Notes under the pieces: generated by a model
Databases searched by the model: none
What the model saw: only the letters and a program-made list of their open reading frames with translations
What the model was told of the DNA's origin: nothing
NCBI GenBank assembly: GCA_919901855.1
Contig: CAKKQC010000043.1
Location: forward strand, 1 to 55,671
From: a bacterium
GTDB taxonomy: Bacteria; Oederibacteriota; CAKKQC01
DNA length: 55,671 bases
Reading direction: 5' to 3'
Made by a program: the position numbers and the translations under genes
Shown here: positions 1 through 49,682 of the stretch, one piece after another
Position numbering within the stretch: the first letter of the stretch is position 1
Layout of the letters: every line of letters begins with the position of its first letter

Positions 1-1012
1 GGGCCGGGACCGCGAGCGCCGCCGCGGCGGCCTCCCCCGTCCGGGCCGCCGCCAGCGGATCGAGCCAGCCCCGCCCGGCGGTCTCGCCGGGCTCCGCCGC
101 CGACGACAGCACGGCGAGGTTCGCGTGCACGCGCGCGCCGCGCGCCAGGACCCAGGGCGACGCCATGCCAAGCTCGTAGCTGGCGTGCGTGAACGCCGCC
201 TTCCGCAGACCCGGCATCTCCGCCTTCAGCCGCTCGACCAGCGCGATCGTCGAACGCCTCGCCCCGATCTCGGCCGCCATGAGTCCGTCCAGGTCGGCGG
301 ACGGCAGGCCCACGTCGATCCACGCCTCGAGCAGGCGGTGGCCGGGCCCCAGGTACCCTTCCCGCCACCCGCCCTCGGGCCCGTCCCGCAGACGCCCCGG
401 GTCGCATTCCGTGAACTCGATCGTCCGGGAGGCCCGGATCCGGGCGGGAAGCCTCCACCGTTGCTCGAACCTCTCCCCCGCCAGCCGGGCGACGAGCCCC
501 CACTCCGTCGCGTCCGCGACCGCCCGGCCCAGTACCGCGCGCCGGCCGCCCTTGCCCGCCACCACGAGTCCCGCGAGCCGGCCGCCCTCCCGCACGATCC
601 CGACCGGCTGGCTCGCGTAGAGCAACCGGACGCCTGCCGCGAGCAGGACGTCCTCGAGCCCCCGCTTCATGCGGTCCGGATGGAGCGCGATCCGCCGACC
701 GAGCTCCACCCGCCGCGACGCCGCGCCGATCCAGGGCTTGAGCAGGGCCGGCGGCCGGTCGAGCGCCGCCGCGTCCATCCACGGCCGGTACAGGGCGCCG
801 GCCTCGTACCCGGGCGCCGTGCGCGGCTCCACGACCACGACGCGGGCGCCCCGTCTCGCCGCCCCGAGTGCCGCCGCGCACCCCGCGAACGACGCGCCGG
901 CCACCACCAGGTCGGCCTCGGCCTCCACCGCCATCCGCCCGGCGGGGATGAACAGCCGCTCCATCGGCCGGTACATCGGCTCGAGCAGAACCTTGGGCTT
1001 GTGCTTGCTCAT
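1..1012 (-). CDS. FAD-dependent oxidoreductase (partial, runs off left edge)
   Basis: Reading leftwards from the ATG at 1012, the frame appears open to the window edge, so only the N-terminal ~337 residues are present. Near residues 25-50 is a Rossmann dinucleotide-binding segment (VVAGASFAGCAAALGAARRG followed by a VVVVE strand), typical of FAD-dependent oxidoreductases of the FAD_oxidored/thiazole-synthase-like type. The first Gly of GxGxxG is Ala here. A GGAG lies 5 nt before the ATG and a TACCAT -10-like box lies 9 nt before it. The substrate is unknown. It is separated from the next gene by an inverted-repeat spacer, so it is probably transcribed alone. Confidence 0.8.
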   Translation of the reverse strand, partial: MSKHKPKVLLEPMYRPMERLFIPAGRMAVEAEADLVVAGASFAGCAAALGAARRGARVVVVEPRTAPGYEAGALYRPWMDAAALDRPPALLKPWIGAASRRVELGRRIALHPDRMKRGLEDVLLAAGVRLLYASQPVGIVREGGRLAGLVVAGKGGRRAVLGRAVADATEWGLVARLAGERFEQRWRLPARIRASRTIEFTECDPGRLRDGPEGGWREGYLGPGHRLLEAWIDVGLPSADLDGLMAAEIGARRSTIALVERLKAEMPGLRKAAFTHASYELGMASPWVLARGARVHANLAVLSSAAEPGETAGRGWLDPLAAARTGEAAAAALAVPA

Positions 1013-12092: not shown

Positions 12093-12418
12093 AACGGCTT
12101 GCCCCGGCGTCGCGGACGGGTCCGGTTGCGGTAGTACTTCATGGTCTCGCCGGGCGGCACGGTCGCCAGCGCGCGACGAAGCAGGGCCAGCAGCTCGTCG
12201 CGGAAGGCCCATCGGGGATTGAGGACGTAGAGCCGGGTGCGCCCGCGCATGCGGCTCACGACGATCCCCCCCCGCTCGAGCCGGTCGAGCCGGCCCTGTA
12301 CCGCGCTCAGGTTCAGCCCGAACGTCCGCGCGATCTCCCGCGGGTACCCCTCGGCATAGTTGGCGAGATACAGGAGCACCTGCTCCACCACGGCGCTTCC
12401 GGTCAGTCCCTCCAGCAT
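12089..12418 (-). CDS. Winged-helix transcriptional regulator paired with a nucleotidyltransferase
   Basis: 109 aa. The HTH (EIARTFGLNLSAVQGRLDRLE, residues ~33-53) and the beta wing (GIVVSRMRGRTRLYVLNPRW) give an ArsR/MarR-like winged helix covering most of the protein. The C-terminus is basic (RPRRRGKPL). The start ATG at 12418 lies 6 nt after TACACT, with no Shine-Dalgarno. The 18-bp palindrome just upstream makes autoregulation likely. It would be the antitoxin or regulator partner of the overlapping nucleotidyltransferase. Confidence 0.7.
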   Translation of the reverse strand: MLEGLTGSAVVEQVLLYLANYAEGYPREIARTFGLNLSAVQGRLDRLERGGIVVSRMRGRTRLYVLNPRWAFRDELLALLRRALATVPPGETMKYYRNRTRPRRRGKPL

Positions 12419-12424
12419 TGGTGT

Positions 12425-12456
12425 AGTGTACCACCAAAAGTGGTCATATGACCACT
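12425..12456 (-). promoter_or_regulatory. Palindromic operator over a leaderless promoter
   Basis: A perfect 18-bp palindrome AGTGGTCATATGACCACT occupies 12439-12456. Its inner GTGGT half is also paired with ACCAC at 12430-12434, so three half-sites are stacked. The -10 hexamer TACACT (12430-12425) ends 6 nt before the ATG. A protein bound here would cover the -35/-10 region. Confidence 0.6.
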
Positions 12457-12524
12457 AAGGATGGTCGGCCTTCCGTCGAGCTACGCAACAGCGCAACAGC
12501 GTCCCCCGTCAGCCCCGTCCCCTC

Positions 12525-13031
12525 CTAGTTGCGGAACGCCTGCACGGGTCGCACTTGTCCGTCTGCCCTCACAAAGGTCTCCCTGAATCTCCCCTTCGTA
12601 TAGCGCCGGATGACGCCCCTCCAGAACCGGCGAGCCACCCGATTGTGTTCGGTCTGCGAGACCTCCCACAGCCCCCGGAACCGGTCGAAGGCCTGGGGCG
12701 CAGCCTTCATCCCGACGCCATGCCGACGGAACGGCCTTGCCACGAAGAACTCGGCGATCTCATAGCCCTCCCCGCGACAGGTGACCATCTCGTGAGTCTT
12801 GACCAGGACGAACCCCGCAACCTTGCCGTCGACGTAGATGAGAAAGGGGAATCGCTTCTTGGGTTCAGTCCAGTAGTACTTCAGGTACTTGTACTCGAAC
12901 AGCCCTTTCGCGTTCATCCGGCTCTTCTCGATCTCGCTGAAGTCGTACAGGTACAACTGCATCAGGTTCCGAAGGAGCTCCTTCTGGTTCGGCCTGGCGC
13001 ACCGCAGGGAAACCACATGTCTGGTTGGCAT
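12525..13031 (-). CDS. GNAT-family N-acetyltransferase
   Basis: 168 aa. Single GNAT domain: the beta-strand FPFLIYVDGKVAGFVLVK is followed by EIAEFFVARPFRRHGVG, whose RxxGxG is the acetyl-CoA pyrophosphate loop, then a C-terminal NRVARRFWRGVIRRYT segment. It resembles the predicted acetyltransferase group COG5628. The acceptor is unknown. TATACT lies 9 nt before the ATG at 13031, suggesting its own promoter, although it also follows the multi-gene operon by 64 nt. Confidence 0.8.
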   Translation of the reverse strand: MPTRHVVSLRCARPNQKELLRNLMQLYLYDFSEIEKSRMNAKGLFEYKYLKYYWTEPKKRFPFLIYVDGKVAGFVLVKTHEMVTCRGEGYEIAEFFVARPFRRHGVGMKAAPQAFDRFRGLWEVSQTEHNRVARRFWRGVIRRYTKGRFRETFVRADGQVRPVQAFRN

Positions 13032-13065
13032 GTCGGTTCGAGTATAGGCTCATCCTTGGATGGCA

Positions 13066-13093
13066 TCCACCGCGTCGCGGACGGGACGGACGG
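13066..13093. repeat. Dispersed intergenic repeat, divergent copy
   Basis: The 28 nt here match 24 of 28 positions of the segment at about 38704-38731 (CCACCGCGnCGCG..CGG.ACGGACGG). It lies just upstream of the GNAT start at 13031. Confidence 0.35.
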
Positions 13094-13095
13094 GC

Positions 13096-13956
13096 CTATC
13101 TGTCGTCTCCAAGCACTGCACTCACCGCCACCTTCAGTTCGGCGAACATCGAGTCGACCAGCTTGCGCTTCCTCTCCAGGCCCTTCTTGTCGTTGGCCAG
13201 GACGAGCACCTTCTCCAGATTCCGGTAGAAGCCTGCCGACGGCACCCTGAAGCCCTTCATGGTCTGAAGAGTCCTCTTGTCGCCTGTGTAGTACCCTCTG
13301 TTCAGCGCGAAGGCGACCTGTGTGAAGTGGTCGATAATCCGGTTCAGACAGCGCATCGCATAGGGAACGTCACCCCGCATGCAGGCCTTTTCGTGCTCGT
13401 GGATCAGTTGCGGGTCTCCGAAAAGACGGCCCTGCTTCAGGATGATTCGGCGGAGCGGATCCGGGAAGGAAGCCTTCTTCTTGAGCCTTGCCACAACCCC
13501 GCCCTTGTCCACAAGAACGCGCCAGTAGTGAATGGTCGACAAGATGGCATATCGGTAATGGTCGAACGGCTTTCCCCGTCGGCTTGCGGGCTCCGTGTTT
13601 GCGTTGGCAATCCACGACTCGACCGTGTCGATATCCTGGCACTCGACCTCCACCCAGATGCCGTCGATCTCCAGGAAATCCAGTGCCGTCCTTCCCCACG
13701 AGTAGAGCCCGATGCTCTCCGGGTCGTCCGCCAGATTGGCGTAGATGCGCCGTCGGTCAACGGCGAGAACCCGGGCCGGTGAGCAAAGGACGACAGTCTC
13801 GAGATCAGAGAGGGTATCGGCCATGCCGACCGCGGTCGACCCGCCCACGCAGACAGCTTTCACTTCCCGTCTGTGCCGGAACGCCGCCGCCACCTTGCGG
13901 GCTACAGCCATCCGCTTCCGTGTCGGATCATTCATGCCAAGAACCGGTTCCACCAT
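13096..13956 (-). CDS. Nucleotidyltransferase-domain protein (DUF4037/ANT-like)
   Basis: 286 aa. CVGGSTAVGMADTLSDLETV near residue 40 is the Pol-beta-type nucleotidyltransferase motif GS...D.E, with a further acidic WVEVECQDID (~100-110) as the probable third carboxylate. The helical C-terminal half resembles aminoglycoside-adenylyltransferase-like and DUF4037 proteins. It begins one base after the methyltransferase start region: its ATG at 13956 and the next gene's TAA form TAACATG. It is therefore part of the exporter/kinase/methyltransferase operon. The acceptor molecule is unknown. Confidence 0.7.
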   Translation of the reverse strand: MVEPVLGMNDPTRKRMAVARKVAAAFRHRREVKAVCVGGSTAVGMADTLSDLETVVLCSPARVLAVDRRRIYANLADDPESIGLYSWGRTALDFLEIDGIWVEVECQDIDTVESWIANANTEPASRRGKPFDHYRYAILSTIHYWRVLVDKGGVVARLKKKASFPDPLRRIILKQGRLFGDPQLIHEHEKACMRGDVPYAMRCLNRIIDHFTQVAFALNRGYYTGDKRTLQTMKGFRVPSAGFYRNLEKVLVLANDKKGLERKRKLVDSMFAELKVAVSAVLGDDR

Positions 13957-40752: not shown

Positions 40753-41484
40753 ATGTGGGACACGGTCTACGGAGTCGACTTCTCGGCAATCTACGACCGG
40801 AAATGGGTTGGCTGGACCGACCGCACGTGGCCGGCCATCCTCGCCATGGTGAAGGAACGCAATCCGGAAGCCCGAACCTGGCTGGACTTGTGTTGCGGTA
40901 CCGGCCGGCTTCTGAAGCGCGCCTCCCTGGCAGGTTACGAAGTGACTGGGGTCGACCGATCCCCCCACCAACTGCGACATGCCCGAAGGAACGCACCAGA
41001 CGTACGGTTGGTCAGAGCCGACATCCGGAGGTACACACTCGGGCGCCGTTTCGACGTTGTCACCTGCATGTTCGACAGCATCAACTACCTCATTGGGAGG
41101 TCCGATTGGATACGGGCCCTGCGAAACGCCCGGAACCATCTGGGACCGGACGGCATCTTCATCTTCGACGTGAACACGCCATACGGCCATCGCCGACATT
41201 GGTGCAGTACGGGAGTCGTCCGGGACTCCTCGTCTTTCACGACGATGGAGACCTCGTATGACCCGGGCAAGGGACTGGCCAGAGCCAGGATCTCGGGGTT
41301 CAGGAAGATGCGCCGGCAGTGGCATCAGTTCGACGAAATGCACGTTCAGCGCTCCTGGCCCGATTCGACCCTTGGGGCGATGATACGAACGGCCGGGATG
41401 ACGTTCCGGAGGTACGGGAGCCCACCCTTCAAGCCGCCCAGCCCAAGCTCAAGCCGCATCTTCTATGTCTGCAGGCTTGGCTAA
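40753..41484 (+). CDS. SAM-dependent methyltransferase (class I)
   Basis: 243 aa. WLDLCCGTGRLLKRASLAG (motif I), VTGVDRSPHQL, VRADIRRYTL, FDVVTCMFDSINYL and LGPDGIFIFDVNTP define a class I methyltransferase of the same general group as those at 13958, 21765 and 29195. No clear ribosome-binding site precedes the ATG. It converges on the APH gene at 41522-42511, another methyltransferase-APH neighbourhood. Confidence 0.8.
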   Translation: MWDTVYGVDFSAIYDRKWVGWTDRTWPAILAMVKERNPEARTWLDLCCGTGRLLKRASLAGYEVTGVDRSPHQLRHARRNAPDVRLVRADIRRYTLGRRFDVVTCMFDSINYLIGRSDWIRALRNARNHLGPDGIFIFDVNTPYGHRRHWCSTGVVRDSSSFTTMETSYDPGKGLARARISGFRKMRRQWHQFDEMHVQRSWPDSTLGAMIRTAGMTFRRYGSPPFKPPSPSSSRIFYVCRLG

Positions 41485-41521
41485 TGGACGTGACCCCAGC
41501 GGACAGACGGGGCGCGAGGAG

Positions 41522-42511
41522 CTACAAACCGCGGGCCAGGTACTTCCTGAGCTGTCTTTCGACGGTCGTCTGATAGCTGCCCCCCATATTGTTCGCGAGC
41601 CTCCAGTTCAGGAGCATCAAGCACCGGCCGGCCATCATGGCGTCCAGGTGTGTGGCGGCATCCCGCGGCCAGGGGGCAATCGTCGCGTAGCCCTCCATAT
41701 AGGAGCGGATGAATCCCCTGCGCCTCCCGTCGTGCGGCAGTTCGTTGAACGTCGTGGCGATATCCTGGATTGGATACCCCCATGCCAGGTCTTCGAAGTC
41801 GATCAGGTGCATTCTTCCCCGGCACATTCTGACGTTGTAGAAGTGCAGGTCGTTGTGGAGCACGCGAAGCCCGTCACGATCGGCGAACATGGCATCGAGG
41901 TGGCGCTGAACGGCCCGCGTCGCCCGATGAAACAATCGTCTCTGATCTGGTGAGATCTCGTCTCCGAAAGCCGCATCGAAGAGGACAATCGGCTCAACCA
42001 TCGGGAACTTCTTGTCGGAGTACGTGAAGACGCGGTCCAGCTTCCTGATCCGGAATCCTCTTGGGGGACGGAAATGCATGGCGTGGACATGGAGACTCGC
42101 CGTGCAGGCACCAAGCATATGCATGGTTTCGTCCGTGATATCGCTTCCGACTTCGGTTCCGGCAATCCACCGAAACAAGACAGAGGGCCTCGACTCTCCG
42201 GTGCCGGGCATCCGTACAGCCGAAACCGGCCGCCCGTTCCGGGCCCTCAACGGTTCCGGAACACGAAGACCGGCGTGCTGACGGACGAACTCGAGAAAGG
42301 CTATTTCCGACCGTACCTCGTCGATCCCGTGGCATTCGATCGGGCTGGTGATTCTCAGCGCATACTTCCCGCCGTCCTTGGCGTCAACGCGGAATAGGTG
42401 GTTGCTATGGTTCGCAAGAAAGGCTACACGCTTGATCGCCACGGGGTATGCCCCGAGCGCCTTCCGCGCCAATTCCAGCAGGATGGCAACACCTTGGCCT
42501 GCGTTTGACAT
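41522..42511 (-). CDS. APH-family phosphotransferase
   Basis: 329 aa from the ATG at 42511, where TATCGT ends 7 nt upstream; a GTG at 42520 is less likely. YALRITSP has Arg at the usual ATP Lys position. The catalytic loop is VLHNDLHFYNVRM (HND for HGD) and the metal motif HLIDFEDLAWGY. Overall layout is of homoserine-kinase-II/spectinomycin-phosphotransferase-like proteins. Confidence 0.8.
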   Translation of the reverse strand: MSNAGQGVAILLELARKALGAYPVAIKRVAFLANHSNHLFRVDAKDGGKYALRITSPIECHGIDEVRSEIAFLEFVRQHAGLRVPEPLRARNGRPVSAVRMPGTGESRPSVLFRWIAGTEVGSDITDETMHMLGACTASLHVHAMHFRPPRGFRIRKLDRVFTYSDKKFPMVEPIVLFDAAFGDEISPDQRRLFHRATRAVQRHLDAMFADRDGLRVLHNDLHFYNVRMCRGRMHLIDFEDLAWGYPIQDIATTFNELPHDGRRRGFIRSYMEGYATIAPWPRDAATHLDAMMAGRCLMLLNWRLANNMGGSYQTTVERQLRKYLARGL

Positions 42512-42631
42512 CAGGGGCACGATACCACGAGCGGACGAAAGGTCACGGAAGGACCGGGGACCTCGATCCCCGAGTTCCTCGACTTCTCACATACGTCCCC
42601 CTGCCCACAAAGGCTGAACTGATCTTCTGCA

Positions 42632-43195
42632 TTACGGTTCTGCCGGAGATTCGCCGGGTGGTTTGGATGGTCCCTCGATCGAGTAGGTCCAATACGGGGT
42701 TCCATGGCGCATGCTCTCGCCGACCAGCGACATTCCCACCTTCTCGGCGACGCGCCGTGAGGCGAGGTTGCCGACTCGAATCAGGCTGATGAGCCGCGGG
42801 AGTCGCAGGATCGCGAATGCATAATCCCTGACTGCGCTCGCGGCTTCGGTGGCGAAGCCGCGGTTCCAATACTGACTTCGGAAGTCATAACCCAGTTCCG
42901 CCACCCGCACACCCTCGACCTCCATCTGCTCAAGTCCACAATCACCGATGAGTGTCCCGGACTCCCTTAGGATGACCGAGAACAAGCCGTAGCCGAATGC
43001 ACTCTGGTGATCGAGATTTCTCCGCAACCAGCCTTCCATTTGATCCCGGCTGAACGGTTCGATCCCGAAAGATGCGGTGACACCGGGATCCGTAAAGATC
43101 AGGTGCAGCGCGTCGATGTCGGTTTCCTGCATTGGACGAAGGATGAGGCGTTGCGTCTCAATCTCGCCCTCAGGCTGGAGCAATCCCAATGTCAT
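42632..43195 (-). CDS. GNAT acetyltransferase, RimJ/RimL type
   Basis: 187 aa. ETQRLILRPMQETDIDAL at the N-terminus is the RimJ/RimL hallmark; then LIGDCGLEQ, AELGYDFRSQYWNRGFATEA (acetyl-CoA loop NRGFATEA) and NLASRRVAEKVGM. AGGAGG lies 6 nt before the ATG at 43195; in-frame ATGs at 43198 and 43210 are possible. It may acetylate protein N-termini or a small molecule. Confidence 0.8.
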   Translation of the reverse strand: MTLGLLQPEGEIETQRLILRPMQETDIDALHLIFTDPGVTASFGIEPFSRDQMEGWLRRNLDHQSAFGYGLFSVILRESGTLIGDCGLEQMEVEGVRVAELGYDFRSQYWNRGFATEAASAVRDYAFAILRLPRLISLIRVGNLASRRVAEKVGMSLVGESMRHGTPYWTYSIEGPSKPPGESPAEP

Positions 43196-44062
43196 CATCT
43201 TCCTCCTCATAGTGTCCTGACCTCCCCCGCCGTGCCGTCGAGGCTGAGCCCCGGTCCAGTATTTCCGCACGGTCCAAGCATGTCAGACTGGCCTCCGCCC
43301 GGCAACTCAAGAACAAGAAGTTGCCGGGCTCCGGGGTACCATTCCGCCCCGGGCTGAAGCCCGGGGTTCCCTGGTACGGCTTATGGCCAGCCCTTGGCCT
43401 GCATCACGCTCGCGGCTGCATTTGTTGAAGCAGACCTTCGCGGTCGCCTCGCTCCAATGAGCGGAGAAGACCGAAATTCTGGCAAGTCTATGGATGATCG
43501 CTCACTCAGAAAGGCAGGGCTTGCGCAGGTGATTGCGTGGGCCCATTAGTATGGTGTGCTCAACAAGCAGGAGGCAGCTCGCTTGGGGAGGCTTGGCCGA
43601 TCCAGGAATCCATATGTTCATGTCCGTCCCACATACGCGCGCGATAGCTTCATGGCGCAGAGTGTCGCCCGACGGCGCAACCCTCTTCGCACCATAGAAC
43701 GCGATGCATATCGAGCCCTGAAGTTGGTCCTGTATCTGGTCTATAGGGTCCCTTGAGATCTTCCTGTCTCTGCCGGTTCGCTTTCGTTGCCATACCCCTG
43801 CGAATCCGCCGCGGTGTTCCTCTTGCGATCTGTCCAGCACACCTTCCCCCCCACGCACAGGGTGGGCAATCTTGCGCTGATAATGGCGAGGGAGCCTTAA
43901 GGGAAGCCCCCACCCCCGTATTTCGCTCGACTCATCCACGCTCGTCCGGGATACCTCGACTGATCGCATCTTCCCGGCTTCCTTGTTGAGACGAGCAGAA
44001 TCGCCAAAAAGCATTGATTTTCAGCATATTGTAGGAGCTCCCAGGGTACTAATGACCAGCTC
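43196..44062. other. Gene-poor spacer before the DndB/GHKL island
   Basis: No gene I can support. An open frame on the minus strand (43502-44014) has no recognisable motif or start signal and I treat it as chance. By eye G+C drops from about 43.4 kb on. A GC-rich hairpin lies at 43347-43366. The stretch could be the left flank of an inserted segment, but I found no integrase, tRNA or att-like direct repeat. Confidence 0.5.
43347..43366. repeat. REP-like hairpin (CCCCGGGCT-GA-AGCCCGGGG)
   Basis: Perfect 9-bp stem with a 2-nt loop. It is a typical intergenic GGGCTTCAGCCC palindrome, without a U-tract, so not a standard terminator. Confidence 0.5.
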
Positions 44063-44106
44063 TTGACATATATCTAGAGAGCTGTTAGTATGTGCTCTAG
44101 CAGCTC
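44063..44106 (+). promoter_or_regulatory. Sigma70-type promoter with overlapping palindrome
   Basis: TTGACA (44063-44068), 17-nt spacer, TAGTAT (44086-44091). An inverted repeat GAGCTGTTAG-N8-CTAGCAGCTC (44079-44088 and 44097-44106, one mismatch) covers the -10 and start region. It is followed by AGGAGG and the dndB-like ATG. This leadered, canonical design differs from the leaderless promoters elsewhere in the window. Confidence 0.7.
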
Positions 44107-44141
44107 GCCCCGTTAGCATAAGGAGCTGTGAGGAGGACATG

Positions 44142-45281
44142 ATGAAGGTGATATTTCCGGCCATGAGGGGGATGATCGGTAAGCGCCAGTACTTCTCAAC
44201 GATGGTTGCCCTTTCCGAGATCCCGCACCTCTTCAAGTTCAACGATTGGGCTGAGTGCACGCCGGAGTTGCGAGCCCAGCGCGTCCTCAATGACTCGCGG
44301 GTGCCCGACATCGCCCGTTACATAATCGAGAACGAGGATGGCTACCTCTTCTCCTCCATCACTGCGTCGTACGACGCGAAAGAGGCAGAACTCAGATTCG
44401 TGCCTACTGACCCAAGCAGGGACGTGGGGAACGACGTGGGGAACATAGAGCTGGAGCTTGAACGAGCTCAGTTCGTGATCAACGATGGTCAGCATCGTTG
44501 CGCAGCCATCACACTCGCGCTGAAGGACAACCCTGCGCTAGGGAAAGAGAAGATCAGTATTCTTCTCTTTCCCATGGAGAACCTCCAACGGCTCCAACAG
44601 ATGTTTACGGACCTAAATCGATATGCTCACAAGACATCGAAGTCCCTCGACATCCTCTATGATCACCGAGACAGCCTCTCGGCACTGACAATGGAAATCT
44701 CGGAAGCGGTGGACGTATTCAGAGGACTGGTGGACAAGGAGCGCCTCTCTCTCCAGGTGCGATCCACCAAGCTGCTTACGCTCGCCACATTGTACGACGC
44801 CAATTTGGAGCTGTTCGCCGACGACGTGGGACCTGTCGGGAGCGACTCCTACAAGCGCACACTCCAGACTTCTCGCGAATACTGGGAGGAGATCTGCAAG
44901 GTGATACCAGAATGGAGACTTGTCAAGGAAGGGAAGGTAGAAGCCACACAACTGCGGCAGGAGAAGATCAACTCTCACGCCGTGGTGATCAGAGCCCTGG
45001 GTGGACTGGGCCACGCACTGCTCGAGAGTCACCCCAAGGACTGGAAAGAGAAGCTCCGTCCCCTGAAGGATGTGGACTGGAGAAAAGCAAACGGGATCGC
45101 CGTTAACAAGGCATGGGAAAATGTCTGCATCGTCGCCGGATCGGTGGTCTCCAATCGCCAAGCTCGTGCGGCAACACTCGCGAAGTTGATGAGCATCGTT
45201 GGTATCGCCCCTGATCAGAAGAGGACCCCGGTCGAGAAAGCCGCTTCCGGCACCCGCGCGCGCGGGAACAACGTCAAGTGA
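44142..45281 (+). CDS. DndB-like DGQHR-domain protein
   Basis: 379 aa from the ATG at 44142 (AGGAGG 5 nt upstream; ATG at 44139 also possible). INDGQHRCAAI at ~113-123 is the DGQHR signature. MFTDLNRYAHKTSKSLDILYDHRD is the typical DndB follow-up block. DndB regulates dnd phosphorothioation operons, and DGQHR relatives occur in other DNA-modification loci. No dndA, C, D, E or ssp genes are in view. Its stop overlaps a possible GTG start of the next gene (GTGA). Probable role: sensor or regulator of the module, perhaps acting on the palindrome at 44079-44106. Confidence 0.8.
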   Translation: MKVIFPAMRGMIGKRQYFSTMVALSEIPHLFKFNDWAECTPELRAQRVLNDSRVPDIARYIIENEDGYLFSSITASYDAKEAELRFVPTDPSRDVGNDVGNIELELERAQFVINDGQHRCAAITLALKDNPALGKEKISILLFPMENLQRLQQMFTDLNRYAHKTSKSLDILYDHRDSLSALTMEISEAVDVFRGLVDKERLSLQVRSTKLLTLATLYDANLELFADDVGPVGSDSYKRTLQTSREYWEEICKVIPEWRLVKEGKVEATQLRQEKINSHAVVIRALGGLGHALLESHPKDWKEKLRPLKDVDWRKANGIAVNKAWENVCIVAGSVVSNRQARAATLAKLMSIVGIAPDQKRTPVEKAASGTRARGNNVK

Positions 45282-45295
45282 GTGGGAGAACGGAA

Positions 45296-47656
45296 ATGAA
45301 GGACTACGCCCAGCTCTTCGAGAAGCTGATCCACGCCGAGCATGAGGATGAAGTTACCGAGATCATAGAGGCGTCAGGTTACCTCATCGACGACCCGGCC
45401 ATTTGGTTGCCGTTGTGCGGTTTTGACAACAACATCTCTGTTGTCAGCAACCAGGCTTCCAAGCCAGGTGCCGCCATGGTTGAGAAGATCATCAACTCTA
45501 TTGACGCCCTGTTGATGGCGAAGTGCTTCTCGCAGAAGGTCGATCCGGAGGGGCCCCACGCACCCAAGGACATGGCTGAAGCAGTCGAGAAGTTCTTTGG
45601 TGTTAAGGCTGGGCGCATTGAGGCATTGAGCCCTAAGCAGCAGACCGAGTTGGCCTCGAACATTCACGTCGTTGTCACCGGATCGAAGAGTGATCCTTGT
45701 TATATGGTTGTCGACAAAGGAGAGGGGCAGACCCCCGCTTCATTTCCCACTACCCTCCTCGGATTTCAGGAAAGCAACAAGATGAAGATCCCATTTGTAC
45801 AGGGGAAATTCCACTCAGGGGGAACTGGTGTACTCCAGAACTGCGGCACCCAGAACTACGAGCTCATAGTCTCGAAGCGCCATCCCGACGCACCTGTAAA
45901 AGCGCTCGACACGAGCAGCGGGGAGTGGGGGTTCACATTGGTCCGGCGCATTCGTCCCACTGGGACGCAGCGCAGCTCGCGGTATGTCTATCTTGCACCG
46001 GACGGCAGGGTGCCCTCGTTCAAGGCTGCCTCAATCAACGCCTTGCCAGGTACGCGATCCGGAGACAAGACTCCCCTCGCGTATGATTCTCCCCTCTCCT
46101 ACGGCACGTGCATCAAGCTCTACAACTACAGGTGGCGTGCTCACGGACTTGCCACGCTGGAGACCAGGTTCGAGCTTGAGCAGTACCTTCACGCGCCGTG
46201 CCTTCCTTTTCGGGTTACCGAGACTAGGAAGGGTTACAAAGCTAACTACTTCAGCACCACTGTAGCCGGAGTTTGGGCTTCGATTGGCACGAGAGCGGAA
46301 AGCGGGGAGCCCAGCTCTTCGAAGCTCGAAGAAGAGCCGACATATGGCGAGTTGAACCTAAAGGGAATTGGACGACTGCCATACACTATTGTCGTCTTCA
46401 AAGAAGATGTGGATACGAGGCGAGTACCCAATGGCGTCTGCTATACCCTGAACGGCCAAGTCCACGGAAGGGCGCCCGCCGATTTCATCACAAGGAAGCT
46501 GGAGTTCGCATACCTTGCCGACTCAATGCTTGTTTCCGTGGATTGCGTTCAAATAGACCCCGCCGTTCGAGAGGACTGGATTCACTCGTCCCGTGATCGC
46601 ACCCGAGACAATGAAACTGACAGAACTGTGCTCGACGCACTGGCCGAGGCTCTCAGATCCCATCCTGGTCTCCGCCGGTTGAATGCTCTCCGCAAGCAGA
46701 AGGAGGTCGAGTCATCACTGAAAGATGACAAGGAGGGGCTCGACTTCCTTCAGCAGTTGCTCAACCGAGACTCCACACTTTCAACCCTTCTTGGTTTCGG
46801 GAGCAGACTGGTTACTAAGACCGGCCCCGGAGATGTCCCGACCCTGTTCAAAGGACGGAAATTCCCCACCTACTTCCGCCTGGCTAAGGAACCCAAGGGT
46901 GGCCTTGCCAAGCACTGCCCCATCAACAAACTAGTGTCAGTAGAATTCGAGACAGATGCCGAGAATGACTACTTCAGGAGGGCTGATTCGCCTGGAGCGA
47001 TCATGATCACACCCGCTGATCTCTGCGAGTACTCGCAACTGTGGAACGGGAGATTCACAACGCGGTTCCGGGCTCCCTGGAACGCGAAACCCGGCGACTC
47101 GTTCGACATTGCCGTGCAGGTAAGCGACGTTGAACGTGATGCAACTGGTCACCCGTTCACCTCCAAGTTCACCATCGTCGCCTCCCCCGAGGATGAACGG
47201 AAGAGCCCTCCGGGCCCCTCACCTACTCCGCATAGACCGCGAAGCGCTGCCCCCACAAGCGGCCTGACTCACAGGGGCCCCCAGTTCGTTGACGTACGAC
47301 GGGACCAATGGAAAGCCCAGAAGCCTGAAGAGTTCACTGAACAGACTGCCCTCCGCATCAAGCCAGACGGGGAGGGTGGGTACGTCTTCTACTTGAATCT
47401 GGACAACACGTATCTCCTCACCGAACTGACCCGTGGAACGGAAGCGGAGAAGACCGTGGCCATGTTCCATTTCCGGTGGGGCTTGGTACTCTGCGCCATG
47501 GGAATGCTGGTGAACCTCCCCGGAAAGGACGACAACCACGGCAATGCTAGTGACGCGAAGAAGCAACTGACTGTGGACGATATCGGAAAGTGCACTGATG
47601 GGATCGCGCGGGTCATTGTGCCACTGGTCAGACAGCTATACCGGGGGCCGGACTGA
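45296..47656 (+). CDS. GHKL (MutL/Hsp90-like) ATPase of a candidate defence module
   Basis: 786 aa from the ATG at 45296 (GGAG 7 nt upstream; GTG at 45278 adds 6). The Bergerat ATP fold is recognisable: MVEKIINSIDALL (~62-74, N-box with Glu and Asn), VVDKGEGQTP (~138-147, DxGxG) and GKFHSGGTGVLQNCG (~170-184, GxxGxG-like lid). A beta-rich middle and a proline-rich linker (~640-665) follow, then a conserved C-terminal domain (TALRIKPDGEGGYVFYLNLD). No nuclease motif is seen. Such ATPases (MORC/MutL type) act as ATP-driven DNA clamps. Known neighbours are DndB-like upstream and the convergent DNA methyltransferase. Confidence 0.75.
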   Translation: MKDYAQLFEKLIHAEHEDEVTEIIEASGYLIDDPAIWLPLCGFDNNISVVSNQASKPGAAMVEKIINSIDALLMAKCFSQKVDPEGPHAPKDMAEAVEKFFGVKAGRIEALSPKQQTELASNIHVVVTGSKSDPCYMVVDKGEGQTPASFPTTLLGFQESNKMKIPFVQGKFHSGGTGVLQNCGTQNYELIVSKRHPDAPVKALDTSSGEWGFTLVRRIRPTGTQRSSRYVYLAPDGRVPSFKAASINALPGTRSGDKTPLAYDSPLSYGTCIKLYNYRWRAHGLATLETRFELEQYLHAPCLPFRVTETRKGYKANYFSTTVAGVWASIGTRAESGEPSSSKLEEEPTYGELNLKGIGRLPYTIVVFKEDVDTRRVPNGVCYTLNGQVHGRAPADFITRKLEFAYLADSMLVSVDCVQIDPAVREDWIHSSRDRTRDNETDRTVLDALAEALRSHPGLRRLNALRKQKEVESSLKDDKEGLDFLQQLLNRDSTLSTLLGFGSRLVTKTGPGDVPTLFKGRKFPTYFRLAKEPKGGLAKHCPINKLVSVEFETDAENDYFRRADSPGAIMITPADLCEYSQLWNGRFTTRFRAPWNAKPGDSFDIAVQVSDVERDATGHPFTSKFTIVASPEDERKSPPGPSPTPHRPRSAAPTSGLTHRGPQFVDVRRDQWKAQKPEEFTEQTALRIKPDGEGGYVFYLNLDNTYLLTELTRGTEAEKTVAMFHFRWGLVLCAMGMLVNLPGKDDNHGNASDAKKQLTVDDIGKCTDGIARVIVPLVRQLYRGPD

Positions 47657-47676
47657 ATGGACCGCTCTTCGCTGCG

Positions 47677-48867
47677 CTACCCCGGCCGATGCACAAGGAG
47701 ATACTCGCTTGGAGCGATAGTGCTTTCCTGTACCCGTGCGTACCACTTCCGGTTCGGCACACTCCTGCGGAGCAGCGCAGCCACATTCTCGGGAGGTTTG
47801 CAGTAAGAGTATCCAGCGTCCTTCATCGCGGCTAGGTACATGGGCAGCTGAGAGGCAGCATCGGCGAAACCTAACAGCTGAACAACAAGCGCATCGGGAC
47901 GCAAGAGGCCGTGCACCGATTTGAAGACATCGGTGATCATCTGGAAGTACTTCCTCTCGCCGGAAGGAGATCTGCTCCCTCCCGTGTAGTGCGACTCGAA
48001 GTATCCATCGTCCACCTGGGCAATCCAATAGGGAGCTGCGGTTTCCCTGCGACCACGGTACTGCCAACGATGGTAGAGAACGTGAACCTGCGGATATGGA
48101 GGAGACGTGAAGACAAGACTAGGTTTGATCTTCCCCCGGGAGAAGAGCGGGTTCCTGTCTATGCCAACAGAGGACCCGAAGATCAATCTCCTACTCCTCA
48201 GGATGTCTCGCTTGGTGAGGCCCACGTCGCCACATTTCGTGACGAATTCATCCATGCCTCCTAGCATCAACTCGGTAAGAGCAGGAAGCCTCTCGATGAG
48301 GGTCGCCCTGCGAAGTGAGGATTCCTCTCGACCATCAAGTGCCCACTGCCCAAGCCTGAGGAGGACGCAACGCGCAAAAGTACGCCTTCTCTTCCCCTTG
48401 AGCCGATCCGATTTCTTGAGTAATCCAGAAACGAAGTTGCAGACAGCGGGTGGCATATTCTTGACGACAGTGGGGATGGGCTCACATTCCCGTCGCGCAT
48501 TCCTTGCCGCAGAAGCAGCCCATTTCCGAATCGCGAGCTTGTCTGAATCTGTCAATGGAGTCGTTCGTACCTCGGTCACGAAATGAGCTAGAGCGTTGAT
48601 GTCAACGCCGACCATCTTCCTTCCCAGACCCAGCCCCTCAATGATCGAAGTCCCGCCCCCCATGAATGGGTCCATGACCCAGTCTCCTGGCGAGGAGAAG
48701 CGCTCGATCACGGCGCGTGCAAGGACCGGAGAGAACCGAGCCGGATAGTGGTAAAAAGCGTGCGTGCTTCCAGAAAGGTCACTCCGGTCAGATGAACGCA
48801 GCGCCCCTACCAGGTCGTCATTGATGAAGGCGGCTTGAACCGGCCTCTCTAGGTCAACCGTTCTCAC
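47677..48867 (-). CDS. DNA methyltransferase, amino-group (N4-cytosine/N6-adenine) type
   Basis: 396 aa from the GTG at 48867 (GGAGG 8 nt upstream; ATGs at 48873, 48882 and further up are in frame). VMDPFMGGGTSIIEG (~65-79) binds SAM and VFTSPPYPQVHV (~252-263) is the catalytic S/TPPY. FYHYPARFSP precedes motif I. The order SAM motif, ~185 residues, catalytic motif is the reverse of common PF01555 enzymes; the intervening helical region may hold target recognition. It ends 20 bp from the GHKL gene on the other strand. Likely marks self DNA or is the module's modification arm. Confidence 0.8.
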   Translation of the reverse strand: MRTVDLERPVQAAFINDDLVGALRSSDRSDLSGSTHAFYHYPARFSPVLARAVIERFSSPGDWVMDPFMGGGTSIIEGLGLGRKMVGVDINALAHFVTEVRTTPLTDSDKLAIRKWAASAARNARRECEPIPTVVKNMPPAVCNFVSGLLKKSDRLKGKRRRTFARCVLLRLGQWALDGREESSLRRATLIERLPALTELMLGGMDEFVTKCGDVGLTKRDILRSRRLIFGSSVGIDRNPLFSRGKIKPSLVFTSPPYPQVHVLYHRWQYRGRRETAAPYWIAQVDDGYFESHYTGGSRSPSGERKYFQMITDVFKSVHGLLRPDALVVQLLGFADAASQLPMYLAAMKDAGYSYCKPPENVAALLRRSVPNRKWYARVQESTIAPSEYLLVHRPG

Positions 48868-49682
48868 GCCCATGTCCTCCATACTCATCATCAACCCCAT
48901 GGGCCGAATCCCGGACCATGGATTTGACCGGTTTGACATGCGGTGGGCAGGCGGAATGACGGCCGACACAAGCACCGGAGCGCCCTAGCGAGAGGCCATG
49001 GATCGTCACCGCCACACATATGATTCTATTCCCGGACATCCCATTCTTACAACCCGGATTGAACCCTCGACAAGCGATGGAACTCCGAGAACCTGATAGC
49101 GACACGGCCCTCCGATACGACGCACCAACGCTCGTCGACCCTCCGCGATACCCCCCCGTCTAGGACCGTCCGGGGTACGCTCAGCCCGAGCAGGCACCTA
49201 CGTCGACGGCCCGAACCCCCCATGGTCCCGTGATCCCTCTGTGATCCCTTGGGACGTGGACGGAGGGGTACGGCCGGGGATTCCCGGGAAGTCACCCCGA
49301 CCCGGAGATTTCTCGAAAGCGCGTCCGCTGTTACTCTGTGAAGCAGGGCCGTCAGTTCGGAGTGGGGCTCAAAAGCGAACCAGCAGTTTTGAACGCCCCG
49401 AACCCCTACCCCGTGCGGGACGGCGTGCCCCCTTGGGTCGGATGGGCACATTAGGCCGGTAGACCAGCCCTCGGCCCCTTACGCAGACCTTGTGAGCTCC
49501 TTGTGACCTTGACACGTGGGTTGACCTGGACGGATGTGGATTCCTGGGAACTCGACTCGTATGCGAATGCCGCATGTACCGCATTTCCGCTTTCCTGTCG
49601 CCGCTTCCGCATTTCGCTGATCGGATTTCGAGTCCGCCGCCTTAAGGCGCTCAGCCGTCCGGCACTCGGCAACGCACAATCC
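48868..49682. other. 815-nt spacer with no recognised gene
   Basis: Several open frames overlap here (for example minus strand 49047-49451) but none has a credible start, codon pattern or motif. I looked for a tRNA or an att-like repeat of the 43.2-44.1 kb flank and saw none. By eye base composition returns to the high-GC background towards 49.6 kb. It forms the right flank of the lower-GC island. Confidence 0.5.

Follow-up and report, generated by a model that had tools for sequence, protein, structure and literature searches.

A stretch of 55,671 nucleotides of contig CAKKQC010000043.1 (assembly GCA_919901855.1, phylum Oederibacteriota), here called the window, carries a cassette of three intact open reading frames (ORFs): a gene for a DndB-family protein, a GHKL ATPase gene directly after it and, on the opposite strand, a predicted DNA methyltransferase (methylase) gene (Table 1). 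The initial annotation had read these from DGQHR/DLNR, Bergerat and SPPY motifs as a candidate defence or DNA-modification module of three parts, and ORF calls, profiles and motifs agree with it on the identity and position of all three genes. It was also right that the trio lies in DNA of lower guanine-cytosine content, with 56.3% in dndB, 56.6% in the ATPase gene and 57.0% in the methylase gene, compared to 61.5% in the left flank and 70.2% in the right one. The source genome has 4.68 Mb in an assembly that is 93.5% complete.

Table 1. Features of the cassette in the window and of the ATPase it encodes
Feature	Position	Strand	Description
dndB	44139/44142-45281	+	380 aa (379 aa from 44142); ORF calling and DndB-family profiles
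GHKL ATPase gene	45278-47656	+	792 aa from GTG 45278, 786 aa from ATG 45296
Predicted amino-methyltransferase gene	47677-48975	-	Convergent with the ATPase gene, gap of 20 bp
Five [C/G]AGCT[C/G] boxes	44035-44128	+	Operator-like; starts 44035, 44057, 44079, 44101, 44123
Promoter-like TTGACA-17-TAGTAT	44063-44091	+	10/12 consensus matches, extended -10; consensus match only
GHKL and S5-like middle domain	ATPase residues 48-479		Predicted structure
Immunoglobulin (Ig)-like beta-sandwich	ATPase residues about 528-640		Predicted structure
C-terminal alpha/beta tail	ATPase residues about 669-792		Predicted structure

Across genomes, the conserved core of this cassette is the pair of ATPase and methylase, not the trio. 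One scan of 84,980 species genomes with an ATPase profile returned 392 relatives, from bacteria and archaea, and the best 80 of them plus 7 viral contigs were examined (87 loci). A methylase of the window's type lies beside the ATPase in 31 of these loci, 30 of them recognized by gene clustering and one (L063) by tblastn, and in 25 of the 31 it is the immediate convergent neighbour, with gaps from -80 to 108 bp. The hosts of the paired loci belong to at least 12 phyla (Methylomirabilota, Chloroflexota, Bacteroidota, Myxococcota, Calditrichota, Bacillota, Acidobacteriota, Planctomycetota, Verrucomicrobiota, Omnitrophota, Pseudomonadota and Thermodesulfobacteriota). Loci that have the pair concentrate in two main groups of the ATPase tree, 9/9 rows in the one that contains the window and 22/25 in the other, and some 60 other rows are almost devoid of such a methylase, L092 being the exception. 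The reverse search gave the same picture: a methylase profile run against 350 Chloroflexota genomes found five full-length matches (at least 395 bits), followed by partial ones below 98 bits. All five full-length methylases, two of which were already in the ATPase set and three new, have the ATPase next door, four of them convergent and the fifth (L103) in tandem with a divergent ATPase, and none of the 25 partial-match loci inspected has it. Distances within the two families are also correlated (Mantel r 0.48, 0/2000 permutations; 0.54 within clade B), although clustering of kin may inflate this figure, as well as the adjacency count, as they were computed. In locus L010, a transposase-like ORF (12244-13221) lies between ATPase and methylase, apparently an insertion that split the pair.

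The gene directly upstream of the ATPase is co-directional with it, often with a -4 bp overlap, and its family varies between loci. Two families in this slot were read from sequence and have no profile match: a 370-aa protein with a ribbon-helix-helix-like start and a winged helix-turn-helix-like end (13 loci) and a 200-aa winged helix-turn-helix-like protein (8 loci). Others are an HTH_17 protein (borderline profile match), a PIN-domain protein (profile match) and small proteins of no recognized family. Since most of these proteins look DNA-binding, the slot may well hold a controller; the PIN proteins fit instead a toxin-antitoxin pair. A PIN-domain (VapC-like) gene stands directly 5' of the ATPase in L011, L012, L045, L052, L061 and L160, and 5' of the methylase-ATPase pair in L156. 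Most ATPase-methylase pairs have a gene other than DndB in the slot, and DndB or related DGQHR proteins were found at or near the ATPase in the window, L009, L155, L018, L083, L095 and L002. The full trio was found only in the window and in L009, which comes from another phylum and keeps the same order, with identities of 60% for DndB, about 50% for the ATPase and 56% for the methylase. Thus, the proposal of a three-part module holds for the ATPase-methylase unit and not for a fixed trio; homologues of the three genes do in part occur independently, which the initial annotation had considered as an argument against a module. Nevertheless, given the pair at 31/87 loci and the same three genes in the same order in L009, the trio is not a chance assembly.

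The ATPase is, by its motifs and predicted fold, a GHKL superfamily member of an unnamed family. The GTG at 45278 overlaps the dndB stop codon (GTGA) in the -4 bp style, as had been suggested, and the ATG at 45296, which is preceded by a purine-rich GGGAG and gives the 786 aa originally stated, is the likelier start. The Bergerat motifs (E69/N73/D76, D146xG148xG150 and G176) are kept across 72 relatives, and residues of an S5-type loop are conserved as well (NGQ-HG, SRDR). An AlphaFold2 model built from the 72 sequences had a predicted local distance difference test score (pLDDT) of 86.6 and a predicted template modelling score (pTM) of 0.84; residues 48-479 of the model align with Hsp90/TRAP1 (Z 15.7, root-mean-square deviation (rmsd) 4.6, 303 aligned), and Foldseek matches include MORC3, GyrB and topoisomerase VI B. 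The window ATPase has no match above cut-off in Pfam and none in NCBIfam or PADLOC 2.0.0, and ten relatives scanned gave no PADLOC match and HATPase_c_3 only below threshold. The open-access literature holds no description of the pair or the trio that we could find, in agreement with the earlier statement that no named system has this arrangement.

It had also been supposed that an effector activity might reside in the C-terminus of the ATPase. This part was modelled as an Ig-like beta-sandwich and a small alpha/beta tail, in which W678, N707, D709 and N710 are invariant or nearly so. Refolded separately, residues 518-792 had pLDDT 88.7 and pTM 0.51, and their best structural match (Z 8.0, rmsd 3.2, 101 aligned) was near background. 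The idea of a nuclease was not supported, as the structure search with residues 518-792 listed only Ig-like matches, the last 120 residues being barely probed by it, and no conserved ExK was found in this region among the 72 relatives. Neither profile nor fold searches recognized a restriction endonuclease among the cassette proteins.

The methylase is, judging from its sequence, an amino (N4-cytosine or N6-adenine) DNA methyltransferase. Its motif I (DPFMGGGT) and motif IV (TSPPY) are kept in 30 relatives and followed by a long conserved stretch, and PF01555 (N6_N4_Mtase) matches the motif I region only (1.5e-12). Translation may start within the longest frame and leave out its N-terminal extension. 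The suggestion that the methylase marks self fits the layout of the cassette.

The window DndB belongs to the ParB/DGQHR superfamily, scores 344.9 bits against PF14072 and exceeds the equivalog cut-off of TIGR03233 (351.7 versus 328 bits, profile positions 4-353 of 355). DndC (TIGR03183) gave no match in the 93.5% complete window genome or in the L009 genome, and on these grounds neither trio genome is taken to have a phosphorothioation context. A tree of 26 DndB sequences unites the proteins of the window, L009 and L145 in one supported group (100/98) and places that of L155 (entered as L141) close by, at moderate support (90/78), with the DndC-linked DndBs elsewhere. The L145 locus is a second setting for DndB outside phosphorothioation: its plasmid lacks dndA/C/D/E, and DndB adjoins two N-6 methylase genes. 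This 15-kb plasmid of Neorhizobium sp. SOG26 (NZ_CP025514.1, 5866-13355) encodes a TIR protein, DndB, a CopG protein and the two N-6 methylases. No relative turned up when viral contigs were scanned with DndB.

The promoter of dndB has an unusual design. Five boxes (GAGCTC, CAGCTC, GAGCTG, CAGCTC and GAGCTG, in this order) follow one another at a step of exactly 22 bp, with mutually unrelated 16-nt spacers, and the promoter-like TTGACA and TAGTAT hexamers sit between them, 48 bp 5' of the dndB ATG. Because its spacers differ, the array is not a tandem repeat, unlike most AGCT arrays of viral contigs. A three-box pattern had three overlapping matches in the window and none in 100 shuffles; in the whole window genome it is found only at the dndB promoter, and of 94 genomes of Methylomirabilota only the trio bearer has it, again at dndB. 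Phased arrays precede four related DndB genes outside phosphorothioation loci: that of L009 has four boxes with the spacing of the window, that of L145 seven AGCT boxes 21-23 bp apart with one position skipped, and that of L155 three boxes of another sequence (GGGGT/ACCCC), 21 and 22 bp apart by 5-mer start. The arrays of L009, L145 and L155 were matched by 0/100 shuffles. Seven of eight phosphorothioation-linked DndB controls were at background, the eighth (L151, with CTTCC three times) being a weak case reached by 1/100 shuffles; four further phosphorothioation-linked DndB promoters and the promoters of the other, non-DndB slot genes showed no phased array. Two of these four further DndBs, the DndC-linked L188 and L189, have a palindrome near or just before the dndB start codon (ACGCAAGTATATACTTGCGT in L189) and no AGCT array.

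A step of 22 bp gives two helical turns per box, as would be apt for proteins that bind cooperatively along one face of the helix. DndB of Salmonella is a proven autoregulator that binds its promoter (PMC4507180), and from this known role, together with the fact that the array follows DndB rather than the methylase, we infer that DndB binds the AGCT array. It is likely an autoregulator of the dndB-ATPase operon; that the DndB-like protein regulates, as first suggested, remains the best reading, as the slot elsewhere often holds proteins of DNA-binding type and its own promoter has the phased array. The protein shares its family (TIGR03233/PF14072) with the DndB of phosphorothioation systems, of which DNA-binding autoregulation is a feature (PMC4507180), and differs in a genome without DndC, a separate clade and 22-bp-phased boxes instead of TACGN10CGTA palindromes. 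An operator of the Salmonella type was considered for the dndB promoter and rejected, since no such palindrome was found near 44035-44139 at up to one mismatch and the AGCT array stands there instead. Viral contigs with four-box AGCT arrays (15 found) were set aside as unrelated, those inspected being mostly tandem repeats of identical units with no DndB nearby. The viral contigs L165, L168, L172 and L176, and likewise L167 and L173, carry iteron-like tandem repeats of identical 22-bp units (CAGCTCGTGCATAGCCAGGGCG or GAGCTCTCGGGAATGACAGTGG), and no DndB was found alongside them.

The organization of the cassette resembles that of convergent type II restriction-modification (R-M) systems under a C protein, such as AhdI, Esp1396I and PvuII (PMC5333194), with a small controller gene co-directional to and before the effector, an array over the promoter and a methylase that converges from a promoter of its own. 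In those systems the controller delays the dangerous enzyme and so gives the methylase time to act first (PMC5333194). The cassette differs in that DndB is not a C protein and a GHKL ATPase with no identified nuclease takes the place of the effector. MORC and paraMORC ATPases were reported by Iyer, Abhiman and Aravind (2008) from R-M neighbourhoods in which helicases and nucleases are the usual partners (PMC2292703). The cassette shares with these the GHKL and S5 ATPase, the patchy distribution and the linkage to DNA methylases; peculiar to it are the lack of a superfamily II helicase or recognized endonuclease partner, a C-terminus with its own Ig-like domain, a dedicated convergent amino-methylase and an exchangeable controller. 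The MORC motif GhXhhpXXRhl (PMC2292703) is absent, its arginine position being Q394 in 98% of the 72 relatives in our own alignment. As for paraMORC1-5, compared by description only, the GHKL and S5 architecture and the methylase linkage fit, and HATPase_c_3 is below threshold. VcSduA of Shedu (paraMORC3; PMC12137116), a demonstrated phage defence protein, shares the GHKL ATPase domain, which forms its N-terminus, and has a PD-(D/E)xK nuclease domain (DUF4263), whereas none was recognized in the window ATPase.

Taking these data together, we suggest that this is a cassette similar to an R-M system, with DndB as controller, the ATPase as the restriction or exclusion arm and a self-marking methylase, and we place about half of our confidence in this reading. 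DndB would bind the 22-bp-phased AGCT array over its own -35/-10 elements and adjust the amount of dndB-ATPase transcript. GHKL/S5 proteins are ATP-gated dimeric clamps, and the ATPase would replace the restriction enzyme as such a clamp, closing on DNA or on a DNA-protein complex without the methyl mark. Once closed, it would block replication or expression of unmarked DNA, without a recognized nuclease of its own, and the convergent methylase, expressed from its own side, would mark the host DNA so that the clamp spares the host. The ATPase would be the dangerous arm by analogy with C-controlled systems, the methyl mark would control it and invading DNA would be its target; a defence role is what we infer for the cassette, along with this mechanism. 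Nematode MORC-1, as it is described in PMC8277788, entraps and compacts DNA; this, the clamp nature of GHKL/S5 proteins and the gene order of C-controlled R-M systems are why we favour a clamp that is gated by methylation and blocks DNA lacking the mark, for which the chances appear evenly balanced. It is possible that the action of the effector depends on a nuclease encoded away from the cassette. A broader proposal, which we advance only tentatively, is that restriction without a nuclease forms a widespread class with no name as yet: a MORC/Hsp90-like DNA clamp would exclude unmethylated DNA, with its own methylase and interchangeable controllers, one branch having repurposed DndB from phosphorothioation to read a 22-bp-phased operator.

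Several observations weigh against the R-M-like reading, besides the kinship among loci already mentioned. About two thirds of the examined ATPase loci lack such a methylase, which means that the ATPase can function without it or in other settings, and L155 has DndB and ATPase with no such methylase alongside. No nuclease, helicase or translocase was recognized in the cassette, and the promoter of the methylase itself has no AGCT array. Defence genes do occur near some ATPase relatives (ThsA, AbiE, RmrA, SoFic and type II R-M), but these are scattered single cases with no background rate.

The cassette could instead be a MORC-like module for epigenetic silencing or chromosome organization, in which the methylase pattern guides compaction or silencing by the ATPase, DndB is an autoregulator, and resident DNA or mobile elements are the target rather than phages. 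The fold class that the ATPase has in common with MORC and Hsp90, the absence of a nuclease fold match in the structure search and the housekeeping genes that surround some relatives are consistent with such a module. However, the ATPase is patchily distributed (2/45 genomes of its own phylum, 4/95 in Methylomirabilota) and its tree mixes phyla, a pattern that suits mobile defence genes better than core chromosome biology, and we consider a silencing role unlikely.

A different question is whether the AGCT array is recognized by DndB at all. Amino-methylases are known to act on box-related sites (M.PvuII, CAGCTG), and that of the cassette carries SPPY, so the array could be the target of the methylase or of another factor, with a promoter that senses methylation directly. 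This seems improbable: among 160 loci the strict array is found with DndB genes only, methylase loci without DndB lack it, and the array and DndB of L145 stand beside a different methylase type.

It is much less probable that the cassette is the remnant of a Dnd locus, with DndB left over and the ATPase and methylase as later arrivals, an explanation that was already disfavoured. Although the DndB score lies above the Dnd equivalog cut-off, and some distant plasmid relatives of the ATPase adjoin PAPS reductase, DUF4007 and cysteine-desulfurase-type genes, DndC is missing from both trio genomes, that of the window being 93.5% complete, the same trio recurs in another phylum, and this DndB clade stands outside the phosphorothioation-linked ones with another promoter design. 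A similarly slight chance is given to a DNA-repair or mismatch-type module with a MutL-like ATPase guided by methylation, as the GHKL and S5 architecture and the methylase pairing resemble MutL/Dam logic (PMC2292703), but no linked MutS or endonuclease was noticed and the cassette is accessory and patchy. That the genes are chance neighbours acquired independently is hardly credible: DndB, ATPase and methylase are each found without one of the others at some loci, yet the adjacency counts in both search directions, the recurrence of the tail-to-tail order, a few bp apart, and the trio in a second phylum speak against it, and for the ATPase-methylase pair chance is effectively refuted.

Whatever its role, the ATPase belongs to a GHKL family with hundreds of members (392 loci) and no curated family above threshold, one third of whose examined loci have a dedicated methylase. 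If the pair is a system for self and non-self recognition, it would be a candidate bacterial parallel to the silencing of unmarked DNA by MORC proteins, a restriction with no obvious nuclease. Moreover, because this branch of DndB is met where DndC is missing and has a promoter of another design, the automatic label "DNA sulfur modification protein DndB" is unsafe, and any count of phosphorothioation systems that relies on DndB would come out too high.

A cytosine-C5 methylase-cluster gene is present in seven loci without a methylase of the window's type (L041, L059, L065, L078, L081, L094 and L008), mostly within a few genes of the ATPase. Three distant ATPase relatives, L003 (Ensifer), L004 (Hymenobacter) and L005 (Devosia), are near genes for PAPS reductase, DUF4007, class V aminotransferase (cysteine-desulfurase-type), SIR2 or DUF262 proteins, and in L003 and L005 genes for a second GHKL protein and for a response-regulator-like protein lie nearby as well, which suggests an ATPase branch tied to Ssp or BREX-type-4 modules. 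A phage or plasmid origin was rejected, as the ATPase search gave no phage match and seven plasmid matches, all distant. Repeats that could bound an island were sought in the flanks and also rejected, with only short matches of the kind expected by chance. A Pfam scan of the tested ORFs in the flanks (43271-44138 and 48976-49682) gave zero matches, and further to the left (40753-43270) lie genes for a small-molecule-type methyltransferase, an APH (aminoglycoside-phosphotransferase-family) protein and a GNAT acetyltransferase.

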